Position numbers and translations under genes: made by a program | Assembly: GCF_003970925.1 (NCBI RefSeq) | Contig: NZ_RWJF01000001.1 | Span: forward strand, 552,501-616,500 | Reading direction: 5' to 3' | DNA length: 64,000 nt | DNA from: Sphingomonas ginkgonis | Lineage (GTDB): Bacteria; Pseudomonadota; Alphaproteobacteria; Sphingomonadales; Sphingomonadaceae | Notes under the pieces: generated by a model | Seen by the model: the letters and a program-made list of their open reading frames with translations, nothing else | What the model was told of the DNA's origin: nothing | The model's database searches: none | Part shown: in pieces, positions 8,058-19,571 of the stretch | Layout: the number at the start of each line of letters is the position of its first letter | How positions within the stretch are numbered: the first letter of the stretch is position 1

Positions 8058-9587
8058 GTGAGCGGGGGCGCGCCGCCCAGCATCTGCATCCTCGGCGGGG
8101 GAACCGCGGGATGGATGGCGGCCTGCCTGCTCCAGCAGCGCTGGGGCAGCCGGGGCACCCGGATCACGTTAATCGAGAGCAGCGCCATTCCCATCATCGG
8201 GGTTGGCGAAGGCTCGACTCCCCAGCTGAAGGCCTTCTTCGATGCACTGGGAATCGCCGAGCGCGAGTGGATGCCGCGCTGCCATGCCACCTACAAGACG
8301 GGCATCCAATTCCGCGGCTGGTCCGACCGGCCCGGCTTCGACCAGTATTTCCACCCGTTCCCGACCGCGCTGGATGTCCACACCGCGGGCGACTTCTTCC
8401 ATCATTGCCGGCTTCGGCGGCTCGGCGTCGATGTTCCGGCGCACCCGGACCTGTTCTTCCTCCCGGCCCGCCTCGCCGCCGCCGCGAAGGCGCCGCTCCC
8501 GGCCGCCGATTTCCCGTTCGACACGAGCTACGGCTACCATTTCGACGCCGCCTTGATGGGCAGTTTCCTGCGGGAGGTGGCGACCTCGCGCGGGGTCGTC
8601 CATGCCGATGCTCGAATCGTCGAGACCGTTCTGGCGCCCGATGGCGATGTGGAAGCGCTGCTGGGGGACGATGGGCGCCGGTTCGAGGCCGACCTGTTCG
8701 TCGACGCCAGCGGCTTTCGCGCACTGATCCTCGAAGGCGCCCTTGGCGAGCCGCACCGGAGCTTCGCGGAGAACCTGTTCAACGACCGCGCGGTGGTCGC
8801 TCCGACACCACTTCCCGCGGAGGGTCCGGGGGTATGCACCCGCAGCACGGCCCTGTCGGCGGGCTGGGCCTGGCACATTCCGCTCACGAGCCGCATCGGC
8901 AACGGTTACGTCTATTCGTCGCGCCACTGTTCCGACGAAGCGGCGGCGAGCGAGTTCCGGAGCCATGTCGGGCTGGCTGCCGACGCGGAGGTCCGCCATC
9001 TCGAGATGAAGGTCGGCCGGCTGGAGCGCAGCTGGGTCCGCAACGCGCTGGCGGTGGGGCTGGCGCAGGGCTTCGTCGAACCGCTCGAGGCGACCGCGCT
9101 GCACGTTGTTCTTGCGACAGTTGAGGATTTCATCGCCGCGTTCGAGCAGGAGGGAGCCACTGACCGGACACGGGCCGACTTCAATCGCGGCTGCGCGTCC
9201 CGCATCGAGGGTATCCGCGACTATATCGTCGCCCACTACCGGGCCGCGCCCCGCGGCGACACCCGCTACTGGCAGGAGGCGACCGGCCATGACCAGCTGT
9301 CGGACAGCCTGAAAGCGCTCTTCACCTGCTGGTTCACCGGCCGGGACATGGTCGAGGAAATCGACCGGCAGGGCATTGCTGCTTACTATCCGGCGATCAG
9401 CTGGCACTGCCTGTTCGGCGGCTATGGCAATTTCCCGTCCGTGCTGAGCCCGGTCCCGGACAACGTCCGGGCCGCCGACATGGCCAGGGTCGAGCATTTC
9501 CTGACCGCGTGCGCGGGTCACTATCCCGCTCACTCCGCGGCGCTGGAAAGGCTCGATCGAGCCGAGCGGGTTGGTTCGCCTGGCTAG
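8058..9587 (+). CDS. Flavin-dependent (tryptophan) halogenase-family protein 2
   Basis: A 509-residue paralogue of the protein at 3125. It has GGGTAGW at residues 13-19, the PrnA-Lys79-like lysine at Lys80 (ATYKTGIQF) and WxWxIP at 270-275 (WAWHIP). The GTG start at 8058 follows the glucosidase stop by 19 bases and has a G-rich stretch (AGGGG at 8041-8045) upstream. It is the last gene of the starch operon, and its end overlaps the end of the convergent efflux lipoprotein gene by four bases. Two divergent copies in one locus suggest two substrates or a two-step role, which is inference. Confidence 0.9.
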   Translation: MSGGAPPSICILGGGTAGWMAACLLQQRWGSRGTRITLIESSAIPIIGVGEGSTPQLKAFFDALGIAEREWMPRCHATYKTGIQFRGWSDRPGFDQYFHPFPTALDVHTAGDFFHHCRLRRLGVDVPAHPDLFFLPARLAAAAKAPLPAADFPFDTSYGYHFDAALMGSFLREVATSRGVVHADARIVETVLAPDGDVEALLGDDGRRFEADLFVDASGFRALILEGALGEPHRSFAENLFNDRAVVAPTPLPAEGPGVCTRSTALSAGWAWHIPLTSRIGNGYVYSSRHCSDEAAASEFRSHVGLAADAEVRHLEMKVGRLERSWVRNALAVGLAQGFVEPLEATALHVVLATVEDFIAAFEQEGATDRTRADFNRGCASRIEGIRDYIVAHYRAAPRGDTRYWQEATGHDQLSDSLKALFTCWFTGRDMVEEIDRQGIAAYYPAISWHCLFGGYGNFPSVLSPVPDNVRAADMARVEHFLTACAGHYPAHSAALERLDRAERVGSPG

Positions 9588-11002
9588 CGGCCCGGTTCGA
9601 TCGGGATGAGCTCAAGCGAGCTGTCGGCGCCGAGCGCACGGTAGAGGTCGACCGTGTTGGTGGCGGCGGCCAGCTGGACGGCCACTTGCGACCGCTGTGC
9701 CGTGTAGTAGCTGCGCTGTGCGTCGAGCACGTTGAGGAACGGGTCGATGCCGCCGCGGTAGCGCGCCTGGACCAGCCGCAACGTCTCGGCGCTTGCTCCC
9801 ACATTGGCGCGGCTGGCGCGCTGCCGCTCGCCGATCGTGCCCTGCGTGGCGAGCGCGTCGGCCACCTCGCGGAAGGCGGACTGGATCGCCTGCTCGTAGC
9901 TGGAGAGGAGGGCCTGGCGTTGCGCCTCCGTCTGCCGCACCCGGGCGCGCGTCGCCCCCGCGTTGAAGATGGGATAGGTGATCCCTGCCCCCGCGGAGGC
10001 GCTGAACGCGCTGCCGCTGAACAGGCCGGTGAGCGCAGTGCTGGCGAGCCCCAGCAGGCCGGTGAGCGAAATGTCGGGGAACAGCGCGGCCCGCGCGGCG
10101 CCGATCTGAGCGTTGGCGGCGCGCAGATTATACTCCGCCTGGAGCACGTCGGGCCGGCGCAGCAGGACGCGGCTGTCGAGCCCGGCGGGGAGCGGGACCA
10201 GGGTCCGGTTGGCATCGGCGATCGAGTTCTGCAGCAGCCGCACATCGATCGGCGCGCCGACCAGAAGCTGCAGCAGATTGATGTCCTGCGCACGGTTGGT
10301 CCGCTGCAGCGCGGCGTCGGCGCGGGCGGTTTCGAGCACCTGCTGGGCCTGGAGCAGGTCGGTCCGCGGCGCGATCCCGCCGCGCAGCCGCAGGTTGGTA
10401 ATGCGGACGCTATCCTGCGCGATGGCGACGGTTTGCTCGGAAATGGCGAGCAGCGTCGAGTCCGCGGCATATTCGGCCCACGCCTGAGCGATTTGCCCGA
10501 CCAGCGCGAGGCGCGTGGCGCGAGCGGCGGCGGCCGTCGCGAACAGCCGGTCCTGATCGGATCGGGTCAGCGAGCGAAGCCGTCCGAACAGGTCGAGGTC
10601 GTAGGAGACGCCGACGTTGGCGCCGAAGCTGCTCTGGAAGCCGCCGCCGCTCGCCCGCGAACCGCCATTGAAGCTCTCGCGCGCGGACCCGCTGGACGTC
10701 ACCTCCGGCAACTGGTTGGCGCGGGTGATCCGCACCTGCGCCCGCGCCGCTTCCACGTTGTACAGTGCCGTGCGCAGGTCGCGGCTGTTGCGAAGTCCCT
10801 GCGCGATCAGGGTTTGCAAACCCGGATCGACGAACAGCTGCGCATAGGTGACGGCCGGAAGCGTGGCCTCGCTCGAACGCAGATAGGGGTCGCCGACCGG
10901 CCAGCTGGCCGGGACCGGCAGCGCCGGCTGGTTCAGCGTCGGCTCGAGGGTCGCGCAGCCGGCGGCGGCCAGCATGACGAACGGCGCCAGCCTCCTCATC
11001 AT
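9584..11002 (-). CDS. RND efflux outer-membrane channel lipoprotein (NodT/OprM family)
   Basis: A 472-residue TolC-like outer-membrane factor, the exit duct of the tripartite pump encoded just upstream. The N-terminus is a lipoprotein signal with the lipobox cysteine at Cys16 (MLAAAGC). Two related outer-membrane-efflux repeats follow, each rich in Ala/Gln/Arg helices (VEAARAQV, QAQQVLETARADAAL, FREVADALATQ). The ATG at 11002 overlaps the pump stop codon, so translation is coupled. The length is normal for the family. The substrate range cannot be inferred. Confidence 0.93.
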   Translation of the reverse strand: MMRRLAPFVMLAAAGCATLEPTLNQPALPVPASWPVGDPYLRSSEATLPAVTYAQLFVDPGLQTLIAQGLRNSRDLRTALYNVEAARAQVRITRANQLPEVTSSGSARESFNGGSRASGGGFQSSFGANVGVSYDLDLFGRLRSLTRSDQDRLFATAAAARATRLALVGQIAQAWAEYAADSTLLAISEQTVAIAQDSVRITNLRLRGGIAPRTDLLQAQQVLETARADAALQRTNRAQDINLLQLLVGAPIDVRLLQNSIADANRTLVPLPAGLDSRVLLRRPDVLQAEYNLRAANAQIGAARAALFPDISLTGLLGLASTALTGLFSGSAFSASAGAGITYPIFNAGATRARVRQTEAQRQALLSSYEQAIQSAFREVADALATQGTIGERQRASRANVGASAETLRLVQARYRGGIDPFLNVLDAQRSYYTAQRSQVAVQLAAATNTVDLYRALGADSSLELIPIEPGR

Positions 11003-14000
11003 GCCGTGGCCTCCTGCGCCGGCGGTCGGCGACGAAAATGCTCGCGGACATATTTCAGCCCGTCGCGAACGCCGCGGCGGACCACCACGAAGAAGAGCGG
11101 GATGTAGAAGATTGCGAGCAGGGTCGCGGTCAGCATGCCGCCGATCACCGAGGTACCGATCGCGATCCGGCTGTTGGCGCCCGCGCCCGTCGACAGGGCG
11201 AGCGGCATCACGCCGAAGATGAAGGCGAAGCTGGTCATCAGGATCGGGCGGAGCCGAATCCGTGCCGCCTCCCGCGCGGCATCGATGACGCGCTTGCCCT
11301 GCTTCTCCGCCTGCTCGGCAAACTCGATCATGAGGATGGCGTTCTTGGCCGCCAGGCCCATCGTCGTGAGCAGACCGATCTGCAGATAGACGTCGTTCTG
11401 CAGCCCGCGCAGAGTCACTGCGAAGACCGCGCCGACCAGCCCAAGCGGGATCACCAGCAGCACCGCGACCGGGATGGTCCAGCTCTCGTAGAGCGCGGCG
11501 AGGCAGAGAAAGACGACGAGCAGCGACAGGCCGTAGAGCAGCGGCGCCTGACCCGAGGAGAGCCGTTCCTGGTAGGAGACGCCGGCCCAGGCGATCGAGG
11601 TGCCGGGAAGCGCGCCGGCGAGCTTGGCGATCTCGTCCATCGCCTCGCCCGAGCTCACGCCCGGCGCGGGCTGGCCCTGGAATTCGAAGGCACTGACCCC
11701 CTCGAAGCGGGAAATGCTGCTCGGCGCAACGCTCCAGCCGGTGCGGGCGAAGGCGGAGAAGGGTGCCATCTGCCCGTCCGAGCCGCGGACGTACCATTGG
11801 CCGAGCGCGGCCGGATCGGAGCGGTAGGGAGCGTCGCCCTGCACATAGACACGCTTGACCCGCCCCTGGTCGACGAAGTCGTTGACGTAGCGACCACCCC
11901 ACGCGGTCGAGAGGGTCGTGTTGACGTCCCCCTGGTTGAGCCCGAGCGAGGTCAGCCGGTTCTCGTTGACGTCGATCTTGAGCGTCGCGACGTCGGGAAG
12001 GTCGCTGAGGCGGACCCCCGTCAGCTTGGGATTGGCATTGGCCTGGGCGAGCAGCTGGTCGCGCAGGGCGACGAATCGGTCGCGCGGCATGCCGCTGCTG
12101 TTCTGCAGCTCCATGGTGAAGCCGTTCGACTGGCCCAAGCCGCGGACCGCGGCGGGAACCGTGGCGAACACCTGTGCATCGCGGATGCCGCGGAAGGCGC
12201 TCGACATGCGCTGGACGATCGCGTCGGCGGTATTGTCCTTGCCGGGGCGATTGTCCCAGTTGACGAAGTTGAGGAAGCCCTGCCCGGTGTTCTGACCGAC
12301 GGCTCCACCGCCACCACCGCCGCCGGCGACGAGGAAGGTGGTCTGGACATTCTTCGCTTCATGCTTGCGGAGATAGTCGGAAATCTGGTCGCGCACCGCG
12401 AGCGTGCGGTCAAGGGTCGCGCCCGGCGGGAGCCGGAACTGGATCTGCGCCGCACCCTGGTCCTCCGTCGGCAGGAAGCCGGTGGGCAGCCGGAAGAAGA
12501 GCAGCGCGAGAATCGCGCACAGGACAGCGTAGATGATCAGGAACAGCCACTTGCGGTCGATCACCCGGACCACGCCATTCTCGTAGCGATCGATGGTGCG
12601 GTCGAAGGTCCGGTTGAACCAGTTCTGGCCGCGATGGACGAAGCGGCCGATCGCCGGCGCACGGCGGTCAAGCCAGCCGTAGCTCGGCTGCTCGCCTTTC
12701 GGTGTCGGCGCCTTGAGCAGCGTCGCGGTCAGCGCCGGGCTGAGCACCAGCGCCACCAGCACCGAGAGGATCATCGCCGAGATGATCGTCAGCGAGAACT
12801 GCTTGTAGATGACGCCGGTGGAGCCGCCGAAGAAGGCCATTGGCAGGAATACGGCCGACAGCACGAGCGCGATGGCGACGAGTGCGACGGTGATCTCCTG
12901 CATCGACTGGAGCGTGGCATCGCGCGCCGACATCCCGGGATTTTCTTCCATCAGCCGCTCGACATTCTCGACCACCACGATCGCGTCGTCGACCAGGAGG
13001 CCGATGGCGAGCACCAGCCCGAACAGGGTCAGCGTGTTGATGGTGAAGCCGGCCAGGTAGAAGATGGCGAAGGTCCCGAGCAGGACGACCGGGACGGCGA
13101 TCGCCGGGACCAGCGTGGCGCGCCAGCTCTGGAGGAAGACGAACATGACGATCACGACGAGGACAATCGCCTCGATCAGCGTCTTCACGACCTCGCGGAC
13201 CGACAGCTTGATGAAATCGGTGGTGTCGTTGGCGTAGGCGTATCTCAACCCTTCGGGGAAACCGCCCGACAGCCGCTGGACCTCGGCCTTGACCAGTTCC
13301 GCGGTCTTCAGCGCGTCGGCGCCCGGCGCGAGCGACAGCGCCATGCCCGAGCCCGGGTGGCCGTTGATCTTGATGATGGTGCTGTAGTTTTCCGAGCCAA
13401 GCTCGACCCGGCCCACGTCGCCGAGGCGGACCACGCCGCCATTGTTGTCCGCCTTGACGACGATCGCCTTGAACTGCTCGGGCGTCTGCAGACGCGACTG
13501 GGCGGTGACGGTCGCGTCGAGCATCTGCCCGCGCGGGGACGGCGTGCCGCCCACCTCGCCCGCCGCGACCTCGGTGTTCTGCGCGGTGATGGCGTTGATC
13601 ACGTCGCTCGGCATCAGCGAGAAGGCGGCGAGGCGGGACGGGTTCAGCCAGATCCGCATCGCGTGCGGCGCGCCGAACACGTTGACGTCGCCAACCCCGG
13701 TCACTCGCGACAGCGGATCCTGGATGTTGGACGCGAGATAGTCGGACACGTCCATGTTGGTGCGCTGGTCGGTCTCGTCATACACGCCGACGAGCAGGAG
13801 GAAGTCGGGGTTCGACTTGGTGACCGTGACGCCCTGCTGCTGGACCTGCGTGGGCAGCCGGGTGATCGCCTGCTGGACCTTGTTCTGGACCTGAACCTGC
13901 GCGATGTCCGCGTTGGTGCCCTTGCTGAAGGTCGCGGTGATGCTGACCGACCCGCGCGAGCTCGACTGCGAGCTGAAGTAGAGCAGCCCGTCGATTCCCG

Positions 14001-14211
14001 TGAGCTGCTGCTCGATGATCTGGGTGACGCTGCTTTCAAGCGCGCTCGCCGAGGCGCCGGGATAGGTCGCGCGGATGTTGATCGTGGTCGGTGCGATGTC
14101 CGGATATTGTTCGATCGGAAGGCCGCGGATCGCGCCGATGCCCGCGAGCATGACGATGATGGCGAGCACCCAGGCGAGGATCGGGCGATCGATGAAGATG
14201 CGCGAGATCAA
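10999..14211 (-). CDS. RND multidrug efflux transporter (AcrB/MexB, HAE1 family)
   Basis: A 1070-residue proton-driven inner-membrane pump. It starts with the family hallmark IFIDRPILAWVLAI and shows twelve expected membrane segments in two halves with large periplasmic loops. The proton-relay residues are present: the Asp pair in GLLVDDAIVVVEN (TM4) and the Lys in GLAAKNAILMIEF (TM10). The start codon is TTG at 14211, embedded as TTGA across the adaptor stop. No better start gives this conserved N-terminus. It works with the adaptor at 14208 and the channel at 9584. Substrates such as drugs, bile salts or dyes are not predictable here. Confidence 0.95.
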   Translation of the reverse strand: MISRIFIDRPILAWVLAIIVMLAGIGAIRGLPIEQYPDIAPTTINIRATYPGASASALESSVTQIIEQQLTGIDGLLYFSSQSSSRGSVSITATFSKGTNADIAQVQVQNKVQQAITRLPTQVQQQGVTVTKSNPDFLLLVGVYDETDQRTNMDVSDYLASNIQDPLSRVTGVGDVNVFGAPHAMRIWLNPSRLAAFSLMPSDVINAITAQNTEVAAGEVGGTPSPRGQMLDATVTAQSRLQTPEQFKAIVVKADNNGGVVRLGDVGRVELGSENYSTIIKINGHPGSGMALSLAPGADALKTAELVKAEVQRLSGGFPEGLRYAYANDTTDFIKLSVREVVKTLIEAIVLVVIVMFVFLQSWRATLVPAIAVPVVLLGTFAIFYLAGFTINTLTLFGLVLAIGLLVDDAIVVVENVERLMEENPGMSARDATLQSMQEITVALVAIALVLSAVFLPMAFFGGSTGVIYKQFSLTIISAMILSVLVALVLSPALTATLLKAPTPKGEQPSYGWLDRRAPAIGRFVHRGQNWFNRTFDRTIDRYENGVVRVIDRKWLFLIIYAVLCAILALLFFRLPTGFLPTEDQGAAQIQFRLPPGATLDRTLAVRDQISDYLRKHEAKNVQTTFLVAGGGGGGGAVGQNTGQGFLNFVNWDNRPGKDNTADAIVQRMSSAFRGIRDAQVFATVPAAVRGLGQSNGFTMELQNSSGMPRDRFVALRDQLLAQANANPKLTGVRLSDLPDVATLKIDVNENRLTSLGLNQGDVNTTLSTAWGGRYVNDFVDQGRVKRVYVQGDAPYRSDPAALGQWYVRGSDGQMAPFSAFARTGWSVAPSSISRFEGVSAFEFQGQPAPGVSSGEAMDEIAKLAGALPGTSIAWAGVSYQERLSSGQAPLLYGLSLLVVFLCLAALYESWTIPVAVLLVIPLGLVGAVFAVTLRGLQNDVYLQIGLLTTMGLAAKNAILMIEFAEQAEKQGKRVIDAAREAARIRLRPILMTSFAFIFGVMPLALSTGAGANSRIAIGTSVIGGMLTATLLAIFYIPLFFVVVRRGVRDGLKYVREHFRRRPPAQEATA

Positions 14212-15440
14212 CCCGCCGACCCTCCGCCACCGCCCTGTCCGGCGCCACCGCCACCGCCAGCGCCCCCGCCGCGGCCTCCCTTGCCACCCGCGCCCGGCGC
14301 GCGCGGGATCAGCCGTTCGGGCGTGCTGGCCGGCACGGCACGAACCGCCATCCCGTTCTTGAGCCCGTTGGTGCCCTGCGTGATGACCTTGTCGCCTTTG
14401 TTCAGGCCACCCTTGACCACCCAGTAGCTCTGGTAGGTGCGGGTCGCGTCGACGACCCTGCGGACGGCCTTGCCGCCCGGCCCCACGACGAACACGGCCG
14501 CCTTGCCACCGAGATCGCGGACGATGGCCTGCTGCGGGACAAGGAAGACATTGTTGTCGATGGCCTGGGTGAAGATCGCCGAGGCGAACATGCCGGGCAT
14601 CAGCAGACCCTTGGGATTGGGGAAGCGCGCGCGGAGCGTGACCGTCCCGGTCGTCTGGTCGACGGTGACCTCGTTGAACTGGACCGTGCCGGTATAGCCA
14701 TAGTCGCTGCCGTCATCGAGCTTGAGCCGCACCTGGGTGCTGCCCGGCGAGACGCCGCCGACCATCAGCTCACGGCGCAGCGTCAGCATGTCCGCGCTGG
14801 ACTGCTGGATGTCGACGTAGATGGGGTCGGTGTTCTGGATCACCGCGAGCGGGCTGGCCTGGCTGGCGGTGACGAGCGCGCCGACCGTGAACAGGGAGCG
14901 GCCGATATGGCCGCTGATCGGCGCCGGGATGCTGGTGTAGCGGAGGTTGATGCGCGCCGTGCGCAGCGCCGCGGCATTCTGCGAGACCTGCGCCTGCGCC
15001 TGGCGGGCCTGCGCAGCGGCGTCGGTATAGTCCTGCTGCGAGATGGCCTGCATCTGCGCCAGCGGGCGATAGCGCGCGGCGCGGGTCTGTGCCGCCGAGG
15101 CGGTCGCCTGCGCGGCCGAGAGGTTGGCGGAGGCTTGGTCGGCCGCCGCCTCATAGATGCTGGGATCGATCTGGTAAAGCGGCTGGCCGGCGCGGACGTA
15201 GCCGCCCTCGGTGAACAGCCGCTTGCGGACGATTCCGTTGACCTGCGGCCGGACTTCGCTGGTCTGGAAGGCGCTGGTGCGTCCGTCGAGCTGGGTCAGC
15301 AGGGGGACGCTGGTCGGGCTGACGACCACGAAGCCCACCTGGGTCGGGCCACGCTGGCGGCTGCTGGATTCCTTCGACGCGCCGGAACAGCCGGCGGCAA
15401 CGCCAGCGAGCAGGAAGATGGTGAGGGTGCGACTCAGCAT
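14208..15440 (-). CDS. RND efflux periplasmic adaptor (AcrA/MexA family), Gly-rich tail
   Basis: A 410-residue membrane-fusion lipoprotein bridging pump and outer-membrane channel. The signal ends in the lipobox VAAGC with Cys18. The middle holds the lipoyl/barrel-sandwich half-motifs flanking an Ala/Gln-rich hairpin (about residues 100-170), then the beta-barrel domain. I chose the ATG at 15440, which gives the signal peptide; the frame is open beyond it. The last 30 or so residues are almost pure Gly with a few Ala/Lys/Arg/Gln, an extension absent from E. coli AcrA. First gene of the three-gene operon. No regulator gene of the TetR or MarR type is adjacent. Confidence 0.92.
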   Translation of the reverse strand: MLSRTLTIFLLAGVAAGCSGASKESSSRQRGPTQVGFVVVSPTSVPLLTQLDGRTSAFQTSEVRPQVNGIVRKRLFTEGGYVRAGQPLYQIDPSIYEAAADQASANLSAAQATASAAQTRAARYRPLAQMQAISQQDYTDAAAQARQAQAQVSQNAAALRTARINLRYTSIPAPISGHIGRSLFTVGALVTASQASPLAVIQNTDPIYVDIQQSSADMLTLRRELMVGGVSPGSTQVRLKLDDGSDYGYTGTVQFNEVTVDQTTGTVTLRARFPNPKGLLMPGMFASAIFTQAIDNNVFLVPQQAIVRDLGGKAAVFVVGPGGKAVRRVVDATRTYQSYWVVKGGLNKGDKVITQGTNGLKNGMAVRAVPASTPERLIPRAPGAGGKGGRGGGAGGGGGAGQGGGGGSAG

Positions 15441-15640
15441 GGTGCGCGACTTAGGGGAGCCGGAAGGAGGCAGACAGATGAGACGCTCCACCACTGGTCG
15501 AAAGGTTGACGCTGTTCGTCCGCATTCAAAACTGGCGGTCGAGCACGCCAAACGCGGCCTGCTTCACCCGCGTTCCGACCAAAGCGGCGGTTTCGTCAGG
15601 CGGATGTAATCTGAGAGACCGGGCCAGCCGGGCTAAGCTG
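15441..15640. other. Intergenic region upstream of efflux operon
   Basis: About 200 bases between the adaptor start and the 3' end of tRNA-Phe, both on the minus strand. It must contain the efflux promoter and the end of the tRNA transcript. I see no convincing operator palindrome or T-rich hairpin in it and no supported small gene. Confidence 0.5.
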
Positions 15641-15716
15641 TGGTGCCCAGGGACGGGGTCGAACCGCCGACACTGCGATTTTCAGTCGCATGCTCTACCA
15701 ACTGAGCTACCTGGGC
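15641..15716 (-). tRNA. tRNA-Phe (GAA)
   Basis: A 76-base cloverleaf on the minus strand. The acceptor stem GCCCAGG pairs with CCTGGGC, the D-arm is GCTC...GAGC, and the anticodon loop CTGAAAA carries GAA. The T-loop is GTTCGAC, and CCA is encoded at 15641-15643. It lies 41 bases downstream of yacG on the same strand, as in many sphingomonads, and may be processed from that transcript. Confidence 0.97.
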
Positions 15717-15757: not shown

Positions 15758-15946
15758 CTAATCGTGCTCAGGGCCGCTGTCCAGCCCGGGATCAGCCGGC
15801 GGGCCCGGAATCCGGTATCCCTCGCCAAGCCATTGCAAGAGGTCGCGGTCCTTGCACCCGCGGCTGCAGAACGGCGCATGCGCGGGTTCGGCGGGCTGTC
15901 CGCACAGCGGGCAGGGCTTGGACTGGGTGGAGGGCGAACGGCTCAT
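15758..15946 (-). CDS. yacG: DNA gyrase inhibitor YacG, zinc-finger protein
   Basis: A 62-residue protein with the YacG zinc-binding pattern CPLC (Cys12, Cys15) followed by CSRGC (Cys27, Cys31) and the conserved RDLLQWL helix plus YRIPG. In E. coli YacG binds the gyrase B subunit and blocks DNA binding. The tail is Pro/Asp-rich, as usual. It lies between the PYP-like gene (32-base gap) and tRNA-Phe. Its usual alphaproteobacterial neighbour, the RNase E/G gene, is displaced about 2.7 kb upstream by the two-gene sensor insertion. Confidence 0.92.
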   Translation of the reverse strand: MSRSPSTQSKPCPLCGQPAEPAHAPFCSRGCKDRDLLQWLGEGYRIPGPPADPGLDSGPEHD

Positions 15947-15978: not shown

Positions 15979-16365
15979 TCAATGCTCGCGCTGCATGAAC
16001 AGCCAGTATCCGCCCGCCGCGGCCGGCTGGACCCGGACCCGCAACTCGCGGTCGCGGTCCGAGAAATCGCCGACGAAGCCGAACTCGATGTCGAGATCGC
16101 CGCGCTTCCGGGCGGCCTCGATGCGGCCGACGAAGCGGTCGTTGTTCATGCAGGGTGCGACGTCGAGGAAGAAGCGGCGGCCGAGCGCGGGACGCGAGCC
16201 GTAGCCGGAGAGTTTCGCCTCGCTCCGGCTGAACAGCTGGACGACGCCCTCGTCGTCGAGGCGGATGACCCCGAACGGCAGTTCGTCGATCACGTCGGTG
16301 CCGAGCTGCTCGACCTTTTTCGCCAGATCCGGATCGTCGAAATCAGGGGGAATCGTTGTCGACAT
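15979..16365 (-). CDS. Photoactive-yellow-protein-like PAS protein
   Basis: A 128-residue single PAS domain protein that aligns without gaps to Halorhodospira photoactive yellow protein through the core from Gly40 to Cys72. Cys72 in FFLDVAPC matches PYP Cys69, which carries p-coumaric acid. Glu49 matches Glu46, Phe45 replaces Tyr42, Ser53 replaces Thr50 and Tyr55 replaces Arg52. The C-terminal GGYWLFM matches DSYWVFV. The gene start overlaps the end of the histidine kinase gene by 23 bases, which suggests one signalling unit. I infer a blue-light sensor or a derived redox/ligand sensor. No tyrosine ammonia lyase or coumaryl ligase is in this window, so chromophore supply is unproven. Confidence 0.75.
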   Translation of the reverse strand: MSTTIPPDFDDPDLAKKVEQLGTDVIDELPFGVIRLDDEGVVQLFSRSEAKLSGYGSRPALGRRFFLDVAPCMNNDRFVGRIEAARKRGDLDIEFGFVGDFSDRDRELRVRVQPAAAGGYWLFMQREH

Positions 16366-18556
16366 GGCGGGCGCCCTCCGATGGCTCGGTGAACAGAATC
16401 ACGCCGACAAGATGCGATACCCGAATGCTGTCCGCCGCGAAGGGGAGGACCAGGCGGTCGATGCGGATTGATTCGCCGCCCATGCGGAAGCGCGCCCAGT
16501 CATATTCCGGGGCGAGCGTGGCCTGGCAGCGGCGGTAAGCGCCGCTCATCGAGCCGAACAGATCCTCATCGCCGATCGCGAGCGGCAATCCGTCCAGCGG
16601 ACGGCCGAGCCGGCGCTCCAGTGCTTCGCCGAGCCGGTCGACGCGCACCTTCGCCTCGGGCGTGCCCGGTTCGACCGTGCAGAACATCATCTCGTCCAGC
16701 GCCAGCCCGTCGACATCAAAGTCGTCGAGGGACGGAAGACGACGCGTCCCGCGGATTGCCGCCCAGCGCTCATAGGCGAGCCGCAGCCGGTCGTCGCGCA
16801 GATGGCGGACCAGTCGCGGCGGCTCGAGCGGGCCACCCGACAACCGCTTCGCCGACCCCGCCGGCAGCCGGCCGAGCGCCTCGAGCACGTGGAGCGAGAG
16901 CTCCTCCGGGGTGAACGGCTTGACCAGCATCAGCCCGGCGGCCGGGTCCAATGCCTCGGCCAGCGCGCTGGCGAACAATACCGGCAGGTCCTCGCGATCA
17001 TGGCGGAGATGGCGCGCGAGATCCGGGCCTTCCATTCCGGGCATCGCGATGTCGGTCAGCAGCAGGTCGATCGGATTGAGCGCGGCGTAGGCGAGCGCTG
17101 CCGGCCCGTTGCGCGCCTCCCGGACCTGATAACCCTGGTCGCGCAGCAGCTCCGCCGTGATCGCGCGCACCTGATCGTCATCGTCGACCAGGAGGATGGT
17201 GGCATTGCCCTGCAGCTCCGAGGGGACCGCGACGCGCGTAACGTCGGTCAGCTCGACCGCGCTGGGCGGCAGCAGGATCGACACGGTTGTCCCCTGCGCG
17301 AGCGTGCTTCGCATCTCCACCAGGCCGCCTGCCGTGGCGGCAAAGCTGTGGACCTGCGCCAGGCCGAGCCCAGTGCCCGCGCTCCCCTTGGTGGTGAAGA
17401 AGGGCTCGCGGGCCCGCTCCAGCACATGCTCGCTCATCCCGATGCCGCTGTCGGTTACACTGATCCGGACCCGGCCGTCGCGATCATTGGCAGCACGGAT
17501 CGCGAGCACGCCGGGCGTCGGCATGGCGTCGCGGGCGTTGATCGCCAGGTTGAGCAGGGCGACGTCGAGCTGATGCGGGTCGGCGAGCACCGGCTGGCAG
17601 TCCTCGGCGACCATCAGCGAACAGCGATGGCGGCGGCCGATCGCGTGGCAGAGCATCGTTTCCAGCGGGGGGAGGACGTCCTGCAGGCGCAGCACCCGCG
17701 GTCGGACCGGCTCGTGCCGGGCGAAGGACAGCATCTGCCGGACGATCGCGCCGGCACGGTCGCCCGCGCGGTGGCCCTGCTCGATGACGAAGCGTAGCTG
17801 CTCGTCGCCGACCCGCTTGCCGAGAATGGCGAAGGCACCCTGCACGGCCGCAAGGACATTGTTGATGTCGTGGGCGACCCCGCTCACGACCTGGCCGAGC
17901 GCCTCCATCTTCTGCGCCTGGAGCAGCAGGTCCTGCGCGGCCTCGCGGCTTGCGGTCTCCTCGGTGAGCTCCTGGGCGATCAACTGGAGGGAACGGGTGC
18001 GCTGCTCCGACTCCGCCTCGCGGCTGGCGCGCGAGCGGCGCAGCTCCAGTTCGGTCATCACCTGGCGGGCAAGCAGTTCCAGAAGCCGCGCCTGGCGCGG
18101 GAGAAGCCCGGTCGGGCGCGGTTCCCGGTCGGCGACGCAGAGCGTGCCGAGCGCATAGCCGTCATCCGTCTCGAGGCACACGCAGGCGTAGAAGCGAAGG
18201 CCGTGACCGGTCACCAGCGGGTGCCGGGAGAAGCGCTCGTCACCGTTGAGGTCGGGGACGGCGAAGGATCCTGCCGCCTGAACCGCGTGGGCGCAGATGG
18301 AGGGGGCGAACGGCCAATGGTCGCGGCCGAGACCGACTTCGGCCTTGATCCACTCGCGCCCGTCGCCGACCAGATTAAAGGCCGCAATCGGGGTGTCGCA
18401 GAAGTCGGCGGCGAGTTCGACGATGCGGTCGAACACCGGTTCGCGAGGCGTGTCGACGAGGAAGTAGCGCTCCAGCGCCGAAAGCCGGGCCTGCTTGTCC
18501 CGGCCCGGCGCTTCCGTACGCTCATACCGATGGGAAACCGTTGCGGTCTCGCTCAT
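16343..18556 (-). CDS. Hybrid sensor histidine kinase: GAF-HisKA-HATPase-REC-PAS_5
   Basis: A 737-residue cytoplasmic hybrid kinase with no membrane segment. Domains in order are: GAF (about 28-170); a coiled linker; HisKA with phospho-acceptor His229 (GVAHDINN); HATPase with the N-box LAINARDAM, DSGIGM and GTGLGLA; a receiver (about 452-560) with Asp502 (LLTDIAMPG) and Lys546; and a C-terminal PAS_5-like domain (about 605-735, starting RLPSLDDFD). The receiver followed by PAS_5 is an unusual order. The ATG at 18556 has a GAGGG region upstream. The overlapping PYP-like gene may supply its input, which is an inference. The GAF shows no obvious bilin site. Confidence 0.88.
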   Translation of the reverse strand: MSETATVSHRYERTEAPGRDKQARLSALERYFLVDTPREPVFDRIVELAADFCDTPIAAFNLVGDGREWIKAEVGLGRDHWPFAPSICAHAVQAAGSFAVPDLNGDERFSRHPLVTGHGLRFYACVCLETDDGYALGTLCVADREPRPTGLLPRQARLLELLARQVMTELELRRSRASREAESEQRTRSLQLIAQELTEETASREAAQDLLLQAQKMEALGQVVSGVAHDINNVLAAVQGAFAILGKRVGDEQLRFVIEQGHRAGDRAGAIVRQMLSFARHEPVRPRVLRLQDVLPPLETMLCHAIGRRHRCSLMVAEDCQPVLADPHQLDVALLNLAINARDAMPTPGVLAIRAANDRDGRVRISVTDSGIGMSEHVLERAREPFFTTKGSAGTGLGLAQVHSFAATAGGLVEMRSTLAQGTTVSILLPPSAVELTDVTRVAVPSELQGNATILLVDDDDQVRAITAELLRDQGYQVREARNGPAALAYAALNPIDLLLTDIAMPGMEGPDLARHLRHDREDLPVLFASALAEALDPAAGLMLVKPFTPEELSLHVLEALGRLPAGSAKRLSGGPLEPPRLVRHLRDDRLRLAYERWAAIRGTRRLPSLDDFDVDGLALDEMMFCTVEPGTPEAKVRVDRLGEALERRLGRPLDGLPLAIGDEDLFGSMSGAYRRCQATLAPEYDWARFRMGGESIRIDRLVLPFAADSIRVSHLVGVILFTEPSEGARHVDNDSP

Positions 18557-18632: not shown

Positions 18633-19571
18633 CTAGGCCAGTTCCGCCCGGCCGATCTTGAGCTCGGGCGCGGCGACCAGCTGCACGGCTCCGCCGCGCT
18701 GCCGGGCGAGGAGCGCCAGGAGGTCGGGTCGGGTCTCCAGCCAGTGCACGATGCCCGGATAGGCGCGGATGGTGAGGACGCCCGAGCCCTGCACCGCTCG
18801 ACGGAGCAGCGCCCGTGCCTCGAATCCGGAGCGGTCGGCGGCATGCTCGAGGAGCGAGGCACGGCGACGCGGGCGGACCAGCTGGAGGAAGCCGAAGCCG
18901 TTCACCGCGGTTCGCTCGAACGGCTTCGGCAGCGCGTCGTCGAGGGCGGCGGCGACCAGCTGGCGTTCGGCCTTGCCCGTCACCGTCGGAAAATCGATCC
19001 CGATCGAGCCGCCGATCCCGAGCCGGCGAATGGCCCTGGCTGCGGCGGTCGCGGCTTCCTTGGCCAGCGAGAGCGGAGGCAGCGTTCCGTCGACGTCGAT
19101 CAGGGTCATCGCCGGCGTGAGATGGAGGCGCAGCTCCCCGCCGGGAAAGCGGACGATCCCGCTCCGCGCCTCCTCCAGCAGATCCGACCAGCCGAGTCCT
19201 TCGAGTTCGTCGGTCGGCGCGGGAAACACGAGGGTGCGTGCGGGCGACGGCGGCTCTTCGGTCGGTCCGCCGGCGTCAGCAAGGGCTGCGAGCGGGCGCT
19301 TCCAGGCTTCCGGTCCGGGGATGGTCTCCCGGGTCACCTCGATCGTGCAGGCCGCGCCTTCGCTGAGCACCCCGGCGCCGCGCGGCAGGAGATATTCGGC
19401 GGCACCGGCTTGGGCGAGCGCGGGAACGCCGCACCTCCGCAAGCGGGCTGGGAGGAGCGTTCCGGCGCGCACCACGCCGGGAAGGTCGATCCGCGCCTCG
19501 ATGATGGTACCGCGTTCGACGAGCACGGCCCGGTCCTCGCCCAGGCCATGCTCGACCAGCCACTCAGGCAA
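18633..19571 (-). CDS. Short RNase E/G-family ribonuclease
   Basis: A 312-residue protein carrying the RNase E/G catalytic core. Asp159 in LIDVDG and Asp193 in GGSIGIDF match the two metal-binding aspartates of RNase E. It lacks the long C-terminal scaffold and the Zn-link CPxC region, and it is shorter than E. coli RNase G (about 490 residues). The start is TTG at 19571, inside the maf gene with an 8-base overlap. Its position after maf is the standard alphaproteobacterial order. The truncated architecture leaves open whether it processes RNA as a dimer. Confidence 0.82.
   Translation of the reverse strand: MPEWLVEHGLGEDRAVLVERGTIIEARIDLPGVVRAGTLLPARLRRCGVPALAQAGAAEYLLPRGAGVLSEGAACTIEVTRETIPGPEAWKRPLAALADAGGPTEEPPSPARTLVFPAPTDELEGLGWSDLLEEARSGIVRFPGGELRLHLTPAMTLIDVDGTLPPLSLAKEAATAAARAIRRLGIGGSIGIDFPTVTGKAERQLVAAALDDALPKPFERTAVNGFGFLQLVRPRRRASLLEHAADRSGFEARALLRRAVQGSGVLTIRAYPGIVHWLETRPDLLALLARQRGGAVQLVAAPELKIGRAELA

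Follow-up and report, generated by a model that had tools for sequence, protein, structure and literature searches.

The window, a 64,000-nucleotide stretch of Sphingomonas ginkgonis DNA, carries at 15979..16365 (minus strand) a gene for a real, divergent domain of the photoactive yellow protein (PYP) family, which overlaps the gene of a hybrid histidine kinase in a pairing that is conserved in other genomes. Light sensing by this 128 aa protein (P0002) is likely, as predicted from its sequence, and in our judgement there is about an even chance that it acts in trans on the kinase, as a sensor subunit made separately, with a pocket that most likely takes p-coumaroyl. How single-domain PYPs relay their signal is described as an open question in the main texts of two surveys of the family (PMC9664959; PMC12826048), and in the present case a soluble PYP comes with a conserved partner whose gene overlaps or adjoins its own.

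A divergent member of the PYP family

The open reading frame is present as originally reported, and alignment with Halorhodospira PYP, whose numbering is used for pocket positions, bears out the substitutions described for it, namely Phe for Tyr42, Ser for Thr50 and Tyr for Arg52, together with the retention of Glu46 (Glu49 in the window protein, codon at 16219-16221, minus strand) and Cys69 (Cys72, codon at 16150-16152, minus strand). The FFxDVAPC motif and the C-terminal YWxF are likewise retained. The PYP model TIGR02373 matches the protein with an E-value of 4e-24, whereas the general PAS S-box model reaches only 0.0015, so that the comparison of PYP and PAS profiles proposed earlier comes out in favour of PYP, but the 85 bits obtained fall below the curated equivalog cut-off of 143.05. 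As this model finds only ca. 20% of PYP homologues according to the survey's main text (PMC9664959), such a score excludes a canonical PYP and not membership of the family. By the definition of Xing 2022, a PYP homologue bearing Cys69, the window protein is a PYP; by the combination of Glu46 and Tyr42 it also belongs, with the Glu present and position 42 occupied by the permitted Phe, a residue found in ca. 9% of family members in the main texts of both surveys (PMC9664959; PMC12826048).

The AlphaFold2 model of the protein (pLDDT 91.6), suggested as a structural check, has solved PYPs as its top matches, and its best 40 Foldseek matches are all PYPs or PYP-derived proteins. That the protein is instead an ordinary PAS domain which has converged on PYP, as a generic PAS match (PF00989, E 8e-7) might suggest, is highly improbable and was rejected on the TIGR02373 score, the Foldseek matches and its position among PYPs in the tree described below. 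The two grounds named at the outset for abandoning the identification, best matches to ordinary PAS domains and a cysteine that is not conserved, were both looked for and did not arise.

By sequence, Halorhodospira PYP, the comparison first chosen, is homologous (1kou, E 9e-16; 26% identity over 124 columns), but the closest solved relative is the PYP domain of Ppr from Rhodospirillum centenum (1MZU, E 9e-20; 37% over 110 columns), itself part of a histidine kinase. The window protein resembles single-domain Halorhodospira PYP in size, fold, Cys69, Glu46 and the VAPC segment, while Tyr42, Thr50, Arg52, Phe96 and Met100 of the latter are changed. With the Ppr domain it shares the fold, Cys69, Glu46, Ser50 and Phe98; Ppr differs in possessing Tyr42, Arg52, Phe96 and Met100 and in the fusion of its PYP to phytochrome and kinase, as set out in the survey's main text (PMC9664959). 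The exchanges of Phe96 for Gly and Met100 for Asp, the most distinctive changes in the pocket, escaped the original prediction.

A hybrid kinase gene overlapping the PYP gene

Directly upstream of the PYP gene lies the kinase gene (16343..18556, minus strand; P0044, 737 aa), the stop of which falls inside the PYP gene and gives the 23-base overlap noted earlier. GAF, HisKA, HATPase_c and Response_reg all score above their Pfam cut-offs, in the claimed order: an N-terminal GAF input domain (18047..18445, minus strand, coordinates converted from protein positions; PF01590, E 1.6e-11), a HisKA and HATPase_c core (17264..17899, minus strand; PF00512 and PF02518; H-box VAHDINN, GTGLGL) and a receiver domain (16892..17197, minus strand; PF00072, E 2.4e-21; LLLTDIAMPG and VKPF motifs). 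The domains and catalytic motifs of a hybrid histidine kinase are thus all in place, with 6 of 6 motif patterns present, and no 19-residue hydropathy window reaches 1.6, so that by hydropathy the kinase is soluble, in line with the cytoplasmic kinase that was proposed. Several strict motif patterns missed the relatives' spelling, and conservation was taken from an alignment of 18 kinases, where His229 and Asn340 are invariant; the receiver aspartate, present in the window kinase, is not among the 90%-conserved columns.

The PAS_5 domain claimed for the C-terminus (16373..16828, minus strand) is the part of the architecture that is not detected in the window kinase itself: PF07310 yields no Pfam match there, and a first search with this region returned only itself. 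Its assignment as a divergent PAS_5-like domain comes from relatives, with PF07310 matching 8 of 12 aligned C-terminal members at E-values up to 1 (best 2.6e-5) and hhalign relating the C-terminal group to a PAS_5 protein of genome G439 (prob 99.4). The AlphaFold2 model of the full kinase is weak (pLDDT 68, residues 1-155 below 50); in it the C-terminal strands and helices follow one another much as in PAS domains, with middling confidence.

Among 82 genomes from the family of genome G348, a PYP match at E 1e-15 is found in 19 and a PYP of the same clade as the window protein in six, these being all five of one genus and G439. In each of the five genomes of the Skermanella group, which includes the putatively named S. 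aerolata, S. pratensis and S. mucosa, a homologous hybrid kinase gene lies directly upstream of the clade PYP gene, the two genes overlapping by 4 bases in four genomes and lying 2 bases apart in S. aerolata, and the two-protein unit suggested by the overlap in the window is thereby upheld. These kinases are 40-43% identical to that of the window through the C-terminus, starting from before HisKA in four cases and from HATPase in one, which is cut at a contig end. In the four uncut kinases the place of GAF is taken by Cache-like and PAS inputs (the Cache matches being below the Pfam cut-off), and what they have in common with the window kinase is HisKA-HATPase-REC and the C-terminal domain. 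A different arrangement is seen in G439, where the PYP gene follows, after 6 bases, a 229-aa open frame with PAS_5 as its sole confident domain (45 bits), making PAS_5 the element that both arrangements share. Such a swap between fused and free PAS_5 points to a single contact of the PYP.

Starting from the kinase side, a search of 385 genomes of the class, with G439 at its centre, yielded 14 matches spread over 10 genomes. Only the top two, those of G348 and G439, lie within 1.5 kb of a PYP; a Skermanella relative in the search model favoured G348 by construction, an advantage that G439 did not share. The other 12, among them a second PAS_5 match in G439 itself, have no PYP that close. PAS_5 in general is therefore not tied to PYP, but the version in question seems to be. 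Across 27 kinases with a window-type C-terminus, PYP linkage is seen for five, the other 22 being uncheckable; three of the five are linked by locus, and two, both metagenomic, by contigs identical in length to those of PYP matches (11338 and 49512). Kinase genes upstream of pyp, as here, appear in Dohmen 2025, with HisKA in 8 operons and HATPase in 9 (PMC12826048, Table 2), whose sections on kinase-pyp operons describe neither a REC-PAS_5 C-terminus nor this pocket signature, though its supplement may list some of these genes.

The pair alone fills ca. 2.7 kb between two genes of the minus strand that we take, from their translations and the loci of the genus, to be a yacG-like zinc protein gene (15758..15946) and the ribonuclease E/G-like rng (18633..19571). 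In 17 of the 19 same-genus loci fetched, from 40 other genomes, yacG adjoins rng, and the loci of the two exceptions end soon after rng or begin inside it; by parsimony, the kinase-PYP pair is an insertion and not a loss elsewhere. A tRNA-Phe(gaa) gene (15641..15716, minus strand) stands beside the yacG-like gene and is also close to rng in 17 of the 18 loci scanned from the genus. Just past it, at 9584-15551 (minus strand), is an RND efflux cluster, presumably of adaptor, pump and outer-membrane factor as judged by eye from the translations.

Such an origin raises the question of whether the pair is an orphan in its host, that is, a horizontally acquired apo-PYP without chromophore beside a kinase that responds to nothing but its GAF input. 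The clade is rare: 385 genomes drawn from the class gave only the window genome and G348, and among 298 genomes of the window organism's own family only the window genome has a member, G599 having a distant clade-C-like PYP. Neither a chromophore ligase nor a tyrosine ammonia-lyase was found in the window genome (see below), which together with the rng-yacG adjacency is what an orphan would lead one to expect. We nevertheless consider this unlikely, as the PYP reading frame is intact, its start lies within the kinase gene, a ribosome-binding-like GGAGG (16375..16379, minus strand, likewise within the kinase gene) precedes the ATG by 9 bases, and at all tabulated pocket positions the residue is one common in the clade. 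In GC content the insert does not stand out from its flanks, which says little since relatives may be equally GC-rich. A plasmid search returned 12 records, none with at least 60% identity.

Pocket residues and the G96/D100 clade

Pocket residues were compared across 42 search-match proteins, the PYPs of fetched genomes and two PDB sequences. The window PYP holds Phe42, Glu46, Ser50, Tyr52, Phe62, Cys69, Met70, Phe92, Gly96, Phe98, Asp100 and Trp119. In a tree of 84 rows and 128 columns, with five rows that we label clade-C-like as outgroup and with L028 left out as coming from the same genome as L001, 46 sequences including the window protein form one side of a branch of 99/95 support, recovered in 98% of 200 bootstrap trees. 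This group, which we name the G96/D100 clade, comprises 40 of the 42 search-match proteins and six from genomes, and stands beside canonical and Ppr-like PYPs, apart from the five clade-C-like rows; its inner forks are unsure owing to the few columns and some long-branched rows (L031, P0041 and others).

Counted as sequences, some of them nearly identical and so not independent events, Glu46, Ser50 and Gly96 occur in 46 of 46 members, Cys69, Met70, Phe98 and Trp119 in 45, and Asp100 and Phe92 in 44. The constancy of the cysteine supports the original assignment to the PYP family with its chromophore-binding residue kept. Outside the clade neither Gly96 nor Asp100 is seen in any of 38 rows. Position 42 is Tyr in 31 members, Phe in 13, His in one and Cys in one, and position 52 is Tyr in 30, Arg in 7, Phe in 6 and Ser in 3. 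The new subclass that had been suspected is accordingly distinct on the tree, but it is not defined by the residues first singled out: Phe42 (13/46, with 9 changes on the tree) was rejected as its mark and Tyr52 is found in only 30/46. Its signature is instead Ser50, Met70, Gly96, Phe98 and Asp100.

Comparison with the published clades gives a similar picture of separation. In clade C of Xing 2022, mostly from Burkholderiales, Phe96 is likewise not conserved, but Phe92 and Trp119 are lost and Met100 is kept (PMC9664959, main text), whereas the present clade retains Phe92 and Trp119 and is without Met100; membership of clade C was rejected on these grounds and on the tree. Our clade-C-like rows have Met70 in 4/5, Met100 in 3/5 and Phe96 in 1/5. 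We infer that the G96/D100 clade is separate from clades A, B and C as these are presented in the main texts of the surveys, with a tree that has no known clade B row. In those main texts Phe96 is given as conserved in only 56% of PYPs (PMC9664959; PMC12826048) and the word Skermanella is absent from both, as are "Gly96" from that of PMC12826048 and "PAS_5" and "Sphingomon" from that of PMC9664959. Literature searches on PYP with Sphingomonas, Sphingomonadales or Sphingomicrobium, with Skermanella, with PAS_5 and with apo or hybrid forms returned nothing on the clade in titles and the starts of abstracts.

One member of the clade, P0041, lacks the cysteine segment, with Thr-Gln-His replacing the residues before Cys69, while Gly96 and Trp119 are kept; it is possibly a natural apo-PYP. 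Two further PYPs, L011 and L012 (genomes G019 and G151), carry Gln46; each is part of a long open frame, and the small draft genomes that encode them gave no strong match for the PYP-type CoA ligase.

Chromophore supply and a proposed signalling route

The genome of the window organism, in 2 contigs and rated 100% complete, was searched for the usual chromophore supply, and it is the sole genome searched for tyrosine ammonia-lyase (TAL). Its one match in the aromatic ammonia-lyase family lies above the NCBIfam HutH equivalog cut-off (655 bits against 539) with hutI nearby, and was rejected as a TAL; no tyrosine-type enzyme was found. For the PYP-type p-coumaryl-CoA ligase (TIGR02372) the best match is only 55.7 bits, in a 713-aa frame. 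The genome checks suggested at the outset thus came out negative on both counts, in contrast to Halorhodospira PYP, which has both enzymes. In 16 distinct genomes of the 30 in which a PYP was found (G385 and G460 being one genome, counted once), the ligase search gave 12 with a match of at least 266 bits; the model's own cut-off of 334.7 was not used as a criterion because only one of the 12 passes it. A strong match is missing from four: the window genome, the 170-contig draft G439, and the small drafts G019 and G151 with their Gln46 PYPs. In the window genome and G439 the sole PYP found is of the G96/D100 clade. Furthermore, where the Skermanella group is concerned, all five genomes have their ligase gene close to another PYP (within 2 kb) and not to the clade PYP.

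This pattern is the main reason for entertaining the possibility that the clade has abandoned p-coumarate, keeping the fold and the Cys/Glu pocket to bind another small molecule, or to sense redox state or electrophiles through the Cys thiol, and reporting this to the kinase. The replacement of Phe96 by Gly throughout the clade, the Tyr or Phe at position 52 in 36/46, the cysteine-less P0041 and the redox reuse of PYP proposed for methylobacterial Ppr (PMC9664959, main text) would all fit such a change. Cys69, Glu46 and Ser50 are, however, jointly near-invariant, as p-coumarate binding would lead one to expect; only two genomes have this clade alone, one of them the 170-contig draft; and G019 and G151 also lack a strong ligase match, yet their PYPs are of another kind. 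The absence of a ligase is in itself weak evidence, given that, according to the main text of the 2025 survey (PMC12826048), a ligase is present in only 32% of pyp operons and a TAL in 5%. Nine AMP-binding genes are present in the window genome, and general acyl-CoA ligases might serve. Five of the nine were scanned with NCBIfam: L071 exceeds the cut-off for an exosortase-associated ligase, L076 that for a fatty acyl-AMP ligase and L075 that for a long-chain acyl-CoA ligase (its best score, for methylthiopropionyl-CoA ligase, being below cut-off), and L073 and L074 have no above-cut-off match among the 25 listed. A general ligase taking p-coumarate may still exist. The small numbers, and the frequency of published operons without a ligase, lead us to hold the loss of p-coumarate as a tentative reading, clearly less probable than its retention. 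In its broadest form, a further deep PYP clade marked by Ser50/Met70/Gly96/Phe98/Asp100 would signal through a PAS_5 adaptor, kinase-fused or free, separated from the p-coumaroyl-CoA ligase pathway and either sensing another ligand or having its chromophore loaded otherwise, a picture that we likewise regard as possible, though less likely than not. The apparent lack of ligase bears on whether every Cys-bearing PYP is a photoreceptor.

Under the preferred reading, of a p-coumaroyl-bearing sensor subunit, the group would most likely still be attached to Cys72, Glu49 serving as proton donor, and could derive from p-coumarate that is taken from the environment and activated by a general acyl-CoA ligase. 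The signalling state of the PYP would then alter phosphorylation of the kinase or its receiver, probably by docking at the C-terminal PAS_5-like domain beside the receiver, and would supplement what the kinase itself receives at its N-terminus, through GAF in the window and Cache/PAS in Skermanella. A blue-shifted protein is expected from Ser50, which trends to blue shift, and slow recovery from the Gly96 and Asp100 exchanges, since mutations of Phe92 and Phe96 are reported to slow the photocycle, that of Phe96 in Halorhodospira PYP, and Met100 is proposed to act in reisomerization in the main texts of the surveys (PMC9664959; PMC12826048). Slow recovery would fit gene regulation better than fast phototaxis. 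The Gly96/Asp100 pocket is accordingly a natural experiment on residues thought to govern photocycle speed; searches on PYP with M100A or with F96, M100 and isomerization found no paper, and that on Met100 with recovery only the two surveys.

Ligase genes do occur close to PYP genes of other kinds. The clade-C-like PYP of G599 (L053), a member of the window organism's family, has a PYP-type CoA ligase match ca. 1.4 kb downstream. On a single plasmid, putatively of Indioceanicola profundi (NZ_CP030128.1; G438, L060), a canonical PYP, a clade-C-like PYP and a CoA ligase above the TIGR02372 cut-off are encoded within ca. 4 kb.
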